Below, in pieces: positions 14,505 to 47,896 of a stretch of DNA of 53,733 nucleotides (within the stretch, counting starts at the first letter, position 1; each line of letters opens with the position of its first letter). A program made the translations under genes and the position numbers. The notes under the pieces were generated by a model. That model did not search any database, was not told where the DNA came from, and saw only the letters and a list, made by a program, of their open reading frames with translations. Source of the stretch: Clostridia bacterium (GTDB taxonomy: Bacteria > Bacillota > Clostridia > TANB77 > CAG-508). Where the stretch lies: the NCBI GenBank assembly GCA_022799315.1, contig JAAWOE010000009.1, forward strand, positions 1 to 53,733, read 5' to 3'.

Positions 14505-14583
14505 GTAGCTTTACATGGATGATGTGCTTTTCTTTTTAAGCCTAAAAAGAAAATGCCCATCATCCAGCAAGATAAAGCGGATT
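14505..14583 (-). repeat. GTCCGCTTCATC-family palindrome, copy 2 (expanded, reverse)
   Basis: On the minus strand the left end (TCCGCTTTATCTTGC) and right end (GTAAAGCTAC) match the family. Between them is a long hairpin: GGATGATG and CATCATCC arms continuing into GCTTTTCTTTTT and its near complement. A separate GCTACTG...CAGTAGC hairpin sits just before it, at 14490-14509, directly after pyrC. Confidence 0.65.
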
Positions 14584-24891: not shown

Positions 24892-24930
24892 TGTAGGGTC
24901 GATTTTAATCGCCCAAGTGGCGAAGCCACA
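24892..24930 (+). repeat. GTAGGG(G)CGAT palindrome, copy 3
   Basis: TGTAGGGTCGATTTTAATCGCCC followed by a second small hairpin GTGGCGAAGCCAC. The copy at 29913 has the same order of parts. Confidence 0.7.
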
Positions 24931-24953: not shown

Positions 24954-25158
24954 AAATAAGGTTCTTTTAAATAAAAATCATAAATTATAGAAAAACTTGT
25001 TCAAGCTAAATTTTGCACAGTATGTAATAAAAATTTGCAGGCCCCTCTCACAAGATGTGAGATTCTCCCACAAATTTTTAAAACATACGTATACAAAATT
25101 TACTTTCAGGGCGCTTTTCTAAATTTACTGATTTTTATTTTTAAAAGAACCTTTATTT
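24954..25158. repeat. 205-bp imperfect palindrome
   Basis: The ends AAATAAGGTTCTTTTAA and TTAAAAGAACCTTTATTT are inverted copies. Complementarity continues inward in blocks: AAATAAAAATCA with TGATTTTTATTT, TAGAAAA with TTTTCTA, AAATTTTG with CAAAATTT, AAAAATTTG with CAAATTTTT, and CTCTCAC with GTGAG at the centre near 25055. It has no coding potential and no copy elsewhere in the window. It could be a miniature inverted-repeat element or a large structured RNA. Confidence 0.75.
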
Positions 25159-26844: not shown

Positions 26845-27070
26845 AGTCCGATTCATCTTGACTGATAATTTAATAATAAAACGGTAAGATATATTTTTTT
26901 ATTTCTTCCGTTCTCCAAGGCGTTTATTGTATAGTTGGTTTTAATAAAATACATACACACTATACTAACAATGCAGAAATATGACGCCTTTGGCTAGAAG
27001 GTCGAACTCATTCATGAAAAAATATATTTTACCGTTTTATTGTAAAGCACATCATCCATGTGGAGCTACT
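26845..27070 (+). repeat. GTCCG(C/A)TTCATC-family ends enclosing a large structured element
   Basis: Left end AGTCCGATTCATCTTG and right end CATCATCCATGTGGAGCTAC match the short palindrome family at 6146/14505/17874. Here the interior is occupied by the 167-bp element at 26875-27041. This fills the 340-bp gap between pfkB-like and purE genes. Confidence 0.6.
26875..27041 (+). repeat. Covarying structured element, copy 1
   Basis: 28-bp perfect terminal inverted repeats (26875-26902 with 27014-27041; inner end ...ATATTTTTTTAT) enclose a 111-nt core. Core parts in order: TTCCGTTCTCCAAGGCGT, GTATAGTTGGTTTTAATAAA, ACACTATAC, GAAATATGACGCCTTTGG, GGTCGAACTC. Within the core CCAAGGCGT pairs with ACGCC(T)TTGG and GTATAGT with ACTATAC. 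Three more copies exist at 40342, 40559 and 47734. Confidence 0.85.
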
Positions 27071-40317: not shown

Positions 40318-40546
40318 TTCCGCCTCATCTTGCCTGGATAATTTAACAATAAAATGGTAATATATATTTTTATTTCTTCCGTTCTCCAAGGCGTTTATTG
40401 TATAGTTGGTTTTAATAAAATACATACACACTATACTAACCATACAGAAATATGACGCCTTTGGCTAGCAGGTCGAACTCATTCATAAAAATATATATTA
40501 CCATTTTATTGTTAAAACGAATAATTTACGTGAATCGGGCTAAAGT
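40318..40546 (+). repeat. GTCCGC(T/C)TCATC-type ends enclosing structured element copy 2
   Basis: Left end TTCCGCCTCATCTTGCC and right end TTACGTGAATCGGGC are degenerate forms of the family seen at 17874 and 26845, and again enclose a copy of the large structured element. Confidence 0.5.
40342..40516 (+). repeat. Covarying structured element, copy 2
   Basis: 32-bp perfect terminal arms (40342-40373 with 40485-40516) and a core nearly identical to copy 1. The arm has AAATGGTAATATATA where copy 1 has AAACGGTAAGATATA, and the other arm changes to match. Confidence 0.88.
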
Positions 40547-40558
40547 AGTTAAATAATA

Positions 40559-40719
40559 AAAAAGTAATTAATATATTTTTTATTTCTTCCGTTCTCCAAG
40601 GCGTTTATTGTATAGTTGGTTTTAATAAAATACGTACACACTATACTAACGATACAGAAATATGACGCCTTTGGCTAGTAGGTCGAACTCATTCATAAAA
40701 AATATATTGATTACTTTTT
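40559..40719 (+). repeat. Covarying structured element, copy 3
   Basis: 25-bp arms (40559-40583 with 40695-40719) with a single T-G wobble, and a core nearly identical to copies 1 and 2. The right arm overlaps the last codons and stop of the minus-strand 5'-nucleotidase-like gene, and would serve as its terminator stem. Confidence 0.86.
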
Positions 40720-47690: not shown

Positions 47691-47734
47691 TTTAAAATAC
47701 TATTAGAGCAACAGTTACTAAATAGTATTTTAAA
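47691..47734 (+). terminator. Hairpin after the YkvI-like gene
   Basis: A 14-bp stem TTTAAAATACTATT with AATAGTATTTTAAA, 16-nt loop. It abuts the left arm of structured element copy 4. Confidence 0.7.
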
Positions 47735-47896
47735 TAAACATACAGTAATATAAGAGTAAAAGCGAGTTCGACCATACGGAGCAAAGCGTTGACATTTCTT
47801 TTACTATGTATAGTGTGTCATGTTATTTATTTAAACCAATTATACTAAAACGCCTTGGAGAACGGAGCTTTTACTCTTATATTACTGTATGTTTAT
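47734..47896 (-). repeat. Covarying structured element, copy 4 (reverse, divergent)
   Basis: 30-bp perfect arms (47734-47763 with 47867-47896). Read on the minus strand the core keeps TCCGTTCTCCAAGGCGTTTT, TTGGTTTAAATAAA, ACACTATAC, AACGCTTTG and GGTCGAACTC, although it is clearly diverged from copies 1-3. The arm sequence is almost completely different next to the core (GAGTAAAAGC instead of ATTTTTTAT) but still perfectly paired. Confidence 0.88.

Follow-up and report, generated by a model that had tools for sequence, protein, structure and literature searches.

A family of probably mobile, non-autonomous hairpin elements with a near-invariant inner helix and copy-specific matching arms in Clostridia

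Small non-coding intergenic repeats with inverted arms have been described under the names of MITEs, ERIC, RUP, Correia and RPE (PMC2229807). Among the repeats bcr1-bcr18 of the Bacillus cereus group, Bcr1 is listed as being 167 bp long (PMC2267715), and bcr1-bcr3 have been termed MITE-like (PMC3446304). REPINs consist of inverted REP doublets with a spacer that together form a hairpin; they are extragenic and dispersed, and represent non-autonomous mobile DNA that goes with RAYT transposases (PMC3116915). Apart from mobile repeats, template switching between the arms of inverted repeats is known to homogenise these arms and, in the absence of selection, to give compensatory changes of several bases at once (PMC8794818, PMC8604942), while the drift of RNA stems through G.U intermediates is expected to favour transitions (PMC8794818).

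Here we analysed a stretch of 53,733 nucleotides from a Clostridia bacterium of the gut (contig JAAWOE010000009.1), referred to below as the window, in which an earlier note, made from the sequence alone, had pointed out four structured repeats. All four are present and are not due to chance, as follows from direct reading, inverted-repeat ranks and folding z-scores (Table 1). Among the best 25 of 63 inverted-repeat pairs from a scan of the window, the arms of copies 1, 2, 3 and 4 ranked 4th, 2nd, 8th and 3rd, and these four pairs were the only ones of 25 nt or more in which complementarity reached 88%. The plus strand of copy 1 and the minus strand of copy 4 folded with z = -8.4 and z = -8.2, correspondingly, values equalled by none of 200 shuffles in either case. 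The opposite strands fold too (copy 1, z = -5.0; copy 4, z = -8.4), and folding alone therefore gives no choice of strand.

Table 1. Positions of the hairpin element copies and of the copy 1 core-edge blocks in the window
Feature	Position	Strand	Details
Copy 1	26870..27046	+	arms 26870-26902/27014-27046, 33 nt, 88% complementary; core in between
Copy 1, left invariant block CCGTTCTCCAA	26908..26918	+	block search
Copy 1, right invariant block GGTCGAACTC	27000..27009	+	block search
Copy 2	40342..40516	+	arms 40342-40373/40485-40516, 32 nt, 100%; blocks 40379-40389, 40471-40480
Copy 3	40559..40719	+	arms 40559-40583/40695-40719, 25 nt, 96%; blocks 40589-40599, 40681-40690
Copy 4, reversed	47734..47896	-	arms 47734-47763/47867-47896, 30 nt, 100%; blocks 47855-47865, 47764-47773

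The element is about 165 bp long; its arms measure about 28 bp and its core about 90-110 bp, and a near-invariant helix lies directly inside the arms. Arm length ranges from 20 to 45 nt and lies between 25 and 32 nt in 85 of 102 copies. From the outside inwards, the arm is followed by a short edge, the helix GTTC-T-CC/GG-TC-GAAC and a variable inner core. The constant blocks TCCGTTCTCC and GGTCGAACTC at the core edges are as first described; the inner pairing GTATAGT/ACTATAC, put forward at the same time, is not common to the family, whose shared helix is GTTC-T-CC/GG-TC-GAAC instead. This helix was predicted in seven of eight folded groups, being absent from the prediction for the CANOGC group. 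When three positions of the left block were freed, 53 of the 55 places found in 18 genomes still had CCA there; most of these genomes had been pre-chosen for having an exact copy. A scan of the family revealed five candidate places in four further genomes (G107, G116, G286 and G292) that vary at the CCA positions. Beyond position 7, the arms of 88 copies are 97% Watson-Crick paired, the count being 1820 Watson-Crick cells to 56 mismatches, apart from 32 cells with a gap. At position 8-9, mismatches of pyrimidine with pyrimidine are seen repeatedly, in several genomes. GTAG or ATAG stands near the outer part of many arms in the genus, at no fixed end, and was not seen in other genera. The layout is unusual in that the constant part lies inside, while the arms are variable and yet match themselves.

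Block searches returned 28 copies in the genome to which the window belongs (1,565,227 bases, 47 contigs), so that a four-copy family describes the window and understates the genome. Both end blocks, each with at most one mismatch, are retained in 27 of the 28, the copy at C32:21267 having lost its right core end. In three copies (C2:31980, C10:21341 and C30:20757) the end blocks are kept around a different inner core, and two copies with a core similar to that of these three were detected in G107, a member of another genus. Searching a collection of species genomes with both blocks yielded at least 92 stretches. Eleven of those listed, from other phyla and without arms, were taken as chance and dropped before all copy counts; the remaining 81 among the matches listed come from records named Clostridia, Clostridiales, Eubacteriales or Clostridium, and there is no Bacillus record among the at least 92 both-block matches listed. 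The comparison set thus defined holds at least 112 distinct copies from 23 Clostridia genomes, the genome of the window included, and two genomes supply 55 of these at least 112 copies (29 from G021 and 26 from the genome of the window). Within the bacterial family of the window, a looser pattern matched 23 of the 390 genomes, from 12 of the 39 genera, with one match in all for the reversed-pattern control. Since the search patterns tolerate few differences, the copy and genome counts are lower bounds. The distribution is patchy, with few genomes bearing the element and many copies in some of them.

The initial description knew of no family matching the repeats, which is borne out by the database searches. 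Rfam (release 15) at the gathering score gave one match over the whole window, a tRNA, and none to any copy. At E-values up to 5, the search of eight element-bearing loci recovered RNase P and tRNA elsewhere on the loci; other matches were weak and far below the gathering score, none of them meaningfully covering a copy. Viral contigs contained no exact match to the element, and the core of copy 1 was unmatched in phage and plasmid records. Viral carriage was considered and rejected: one single-end match and at least 120 looser matches, of which 80 were read, were GC-rich and armless and were taken as chance, those read deriving mostly from one recurring phage region. Among the papers listed by literature searches nothing was recognised as this hairpin family.

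Several other repeats occur near the element or resemble it. Positions 24958-25153 of the window hold another structured repeat, about 200 bp long and with inverted arms of its own (AAGGTTCTTTTAAATAAAAA...); it is present at about eight places in the same genome and at four in G016, and was found in neither G021 nor G003. At 14510-14575 there is a palindromic repeat consisting of TGGATGATGTGCTTTTCTTTTT and its complement, which is also seen by copies 1 and 2, both of which abut or sit within pieces of it, and in loci L007 and L027. A short GTAG-tagged palindrome, GTAGGGTCGATTTTAATCGCCC, is located at about 24894-24916, with a similar one, GTAGGGGCGCATGATTGCGCCC, in L095; we take it to resemble REP sequences. 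In G021 the short perfect palindrome AATAGGAAAGTAGAACTTTCCTATT replaces one arm in L035 and L045 and stands alone in L087. Furthermore, at about position 1664 of locus L146 (G003:C17) a broken-off copy of the element is followed by another GC-rich structured repeat with AT-rich arms.

Covariation of the arms, another claim of the earlier note, was assessed by pair counting with two controls, namely shuffling and sliding of the partner arm, in a formal set of 14 of the 28 copies from the genome of the window that form one gap-free arm class (copy 4 is within this set and copies 1-3 are outside it). Changes on both sides were seen in 11 of 27 arm pairs, compared with a shuffled mean of 4.0, and none of 500 shuffles reached that number. 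Pairing in this set amounts to 96.6% of cells and dropped to 38-52% once the partner arm was slid by 1-3 columns. In the same genome, the mean arm score was 22.3 for a copy's own pairing vs 9.1 with the right arm of another copy; mixing of copies lowered it from 15.7 to 10.1 in G021, from 19.4 to 9.3 in CATKWX and from 19.5 to 8.1 in CAOKJC, with a smaller fall, from 22.6 to 18.1, in CANOGC (G016). Non-covarying arms were specifically looked for in further copies, and the arms covary there as well.

All but 4 of the at least 112 copies are intergenic, these four lying inside mechanically called reading frames. Their orientation relative to codirectional neighbour genes is 40:32, and the gene arrangement around 90 element-bearing intergenic regions (++ 38, -- 32, +- 10, -+ 10) is that of ordinary intergenic regions, as represented by 302 others of at least 60 nt (++ 119, -- 103, +- 37, -+ 43). 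A locus-specific role was rejected, the neighbouring genes being of unrelated families or of none (18 proteins from other genomes and 10 in the window). Promoters in the flanks were likewise sought and rejected, promoter-like boxes occurring at no fixed position.

Comparison of sites between related species revealed occupied and empty states. At the site of copy 1 the flanks are joined without an element in all seven relatives examined (G001, G002, G006, G007, G011, G015 and G020), and the same applies to the site of copies 2 and 3 in all four (G003, G011, G020 and G021). Eight genomes were read at the L141 site: the element is full in G015, present in G016 and missing in G001, G004, G010, G014 and G019, while G005 (L340, G005:C22) has a deleted core and keeps two arms with a loop of few bases. 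By a putative sufC (read from its first residues), the genome of the window carries an element and G021 none; G004, G005 and G015 have there an element in the opposite orientation and with other arms. Beside the arms of 102 copies, direct repeats 2-9 bases long were not in excess beyond scattered small values. Pre-existing palindromes as targets were rejected, since in the genome of the window all places that match the commonest arm with up to 2 mismatches adjoin a core, the one exception being C17:19050 with 2; when 3 were allowed, matches of the reversed-pattern control were nearly as frequent. A site in G021 compared with the genome of the window measures 38 bp and has no arms, which also counts against a palindrome target.

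Copies are thus dispersed, lie in both orientations, are present or absent between related species, lack target duplication and have arms that match copy by copy. The reading we consider probable is that these repeats form a family of non-autonomous mobile hairpin elements, the arms of which are kept matched mainly at the DNA level. An enzyme acting in trans would recognise the folded element by its invariant helix, and the form so recognised could be single-stranded DNA, a cruciform or RNA. Complementarity of the arms may then arise mainly at the DNA level, through template switching during replication or through copying at insertion; DNA-level copying between the arms would change the sequence of both together. 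The earlier note had left the choice between a mobile element and a structured RNA: empty sites, patchiness, both orientations and ordinary intergenic sites favour the former, and the latter has been weakened.

The most serious rival, which we regard as rather unlikely, is a multi-copy structured RNA, i.e. a long-hairpin transcript with a protein-binding internal helix, in which selection for pairing drives the covariation. The inner helix, invariant amid variable sequence, and the strong covariation of the arms speak for it, as does the fact that, read on the plus strand of 88 copies, the arms contain 14 mismatches of the G.U type vs 4 of the A.C type (p = 0.03), a hint that plus-strand RNA may matter. 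However, these are just 14 G.U cells compared with 1820 Watson-Crick cells, and the orientation of copies to genes is unbiased, the promoter-like boxes in the flanks lack a fixed position, presence is patchy and no Rfam match meaningfully covers a copy even under the relaxed threshold. Conservation of orthologous copies is also in favour of an RNA. The first of three shows no difference between G005 and G015 over 148 bases, the flanks being about 93% identical, and two differences from G004; in the second one base of 147 differs (G005, G015), and in the third eight of 151 (G004, G005). Two of the three are better conserved between species than their surroundings, which suggests some function after insertion; constraint on inserted copies is likely, if uneven.

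The nature of the changes in the arms bears on the same question. Across 50 of 76 copies in five groups we counted 77 distinct paired changes vs 27 one-sided changes and 12 other events. The paired changes comprise 56 transversions and 21 transitions (131:77 for core variants of the same copies; p = 0.16), so transitions are not favoured as they should be in a drifting RNA stem, although register shifts in the AT-rich arms may inflate the transversions and the gap-free set gives 7 transitions and 7 transversions. The one-sided changes include 7 G.U vs 4 A.C. G021 is the genome with most copies; 19 of these form 47 pairs with cores that differ by at most 3%, and the pairs, having members in common, are not independent. 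Without gaps, positions 1-6 of the right arm are identical in these pairs, positions 7-18 differ in 0-45% of pairs, positions 19-26 in 47-77%, position 27 in only 4% and the flank in 45-81%. With gaps, differences per base are 0.11-0.19 for inner arms, 0.45 for outer arms and 0.50-0.64 for flanks. The left and right outer arms of the same G021 copy differ by 0.29, and its flanks by 0.56-0.59 (gapped). In G016 and the genome of the window the outer arms differ by 0.24-0.29 between copies, with a self-match difference of 0.06-0.10, as if they were mostly inherited and altered by single paired changes. The copies of G015 and G010 at site B have the right core end and inner arm in common but differ at about half of the 15 arm positions that follow, and within either copy the arms match with one mismatch at most; independent insertion may be an alternative here. 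Among three neighbouring G021 copies in L116, one has a change in a single arm and another has changes in both.

Transversion-rich paired changes, together with outer arms in G021 that differ almost as much as flanks and still match themselves, argue for copying between the arms over RNA selection. The data point to arms that are kept matched less by RNA selection than by DNA copying, in the form of template switching or of renewal at insertion. Against this reading stand the mismatch at position 8-9, found in 7 of the 14 copies of the gap-free set and left uncorrected, the excess of G.U-type mismatches, the conservation of two orthologous copies, and the mostly inherited outer arms in G016 and the genome of the window. 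The initial suggestion that either selection or a copying mechanism preserves the fold is shifted towards the second: the 56:21 ratio and the largely copy-specific outer arms of G021 favour copying, and the step from covariation to a selected structure is insecure because template switching yields the same pattern. It is also conceivable, though doubtful, that new copies gain new self-matching outer arms by the copying of one flank onto the other, with the inner helix staying constant. Such renewal could proceed by fill-in of a folded intermediate or by template switching right after insertion, and would amount to an inverted rather than a direct target duplication. Arm renewal is made slightly less likely by the outer arms being, once gapped, nearly but not fully flank-like.

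A MITE of the classical kind, mobilised by a DDE transposase and with long terminal repeats that look variable through decay, is improbable. The inverted arms would fit, as would the size, the number of copies and the insertion polymorphism, and an inward-facing GTTAC motif is enriched at 8-59 nt outward from the arms, with 11 of 103 on one side and 13 of 103 on the other vs 3.8 expected. These motifs, on about 24 of 206 sides, are possibly worn outer ends, with the true end of the element further out; a second, outer inverted repeat was rejected, being clear in few copies only (own flanks 9.46 vs mixed copies 9.07). Against a MITE stand the absence of target duplication at the arm ends and the arms themselves, which match within a copy and differ between copies, the reverse of decay. 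Moreover, no longer parent with the same ends and no unpaired end leading to a gene was found in eight draft genomes, the assemblies of which are fragmented.

The mobiliser of the favoured non-autonomous element was sought among known enzymes. Reverse transcriptase was rejected in this role: PF00078 was present in 22 of 29 genomes and undetected in the carriers G021 and G062. The Y1 transposase domain PF01797 was found in 14 of 29 genomes and was undetected in the carriers G021, G016, G015, G005 and G065; G021, which has the most copies, thus yielded neither domain; this counts against the favoured reading, as does the failure to find a long version with the same ends in the eight draft genomes. 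A clear copy was found at one of 20 Y1 loci (C45 of the genome of the window), and in G058:C6 a Y1 match lies about 1 kb from a copy.

That the elements are bidirectional transcription terminators or mRNA-end elements, inserted and then kept for function, is highly improbable: gene 3' ends lie nearer (median 44 nt) than 5' ends (114 nt), and at the L141 site the place taken in G015 by the element, with a weaker terminator beside it, is occupied in five relatives by a clear terminator, but divergent gene pairs are hardly avoided (10/90 vs 43/302), there is no clear depletion of terminators beside elements, and G016 retains a terminator adjoining its element.

Functional RNA stems are usually proved by compensatory change, and in this family strong covariation comes together with signs of DNA copying. 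With more than 100 copies and some sites comparable between species, the hairpin family represents a natural test case for selection vs template switching in bacteria. Should arm renewal prove to go with insertion, transposition would here have an unusual outcome.

We have not filed the hairpin family as a MITE, a REPIN or an Rfam family, because defining features of these were tested and do not describe it. MITE-type repeats (PMC2229807) are likewise small, non-coding and intergenic with inverted arms; the hairpin family differs in being without target duplication, conserved arm ends or a parent found. REPINs are defined by the repeated sequence of their arms, whereas in the hairpin family it is the inner part that stays constant and the arms that vary; the REPIN/RAYT system also needs a Y1 transposase beside the repeat, unlike the situation in G021 and at 19 of the 20 Y1 loci. 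Repeats of the bcr1 type are likewise intergenic, of similar size and with a conserved fold, but belong to another host group, and the text available of their descriptions (PMC2267715, PMC3446304) mentions no invariant inner helix with copy-variable arms; they are set apart here by description. The closest likeness in the behaviour of the arms is offered by quasipalindrome correction through template switching, which gives the same homogenised arms and multibase compensatory changes (PMC8794818, PMC8604942); that, however, is a mutation process and not an element, and here it would act throughout a dispersed family in which about 100 nt separate the arms.
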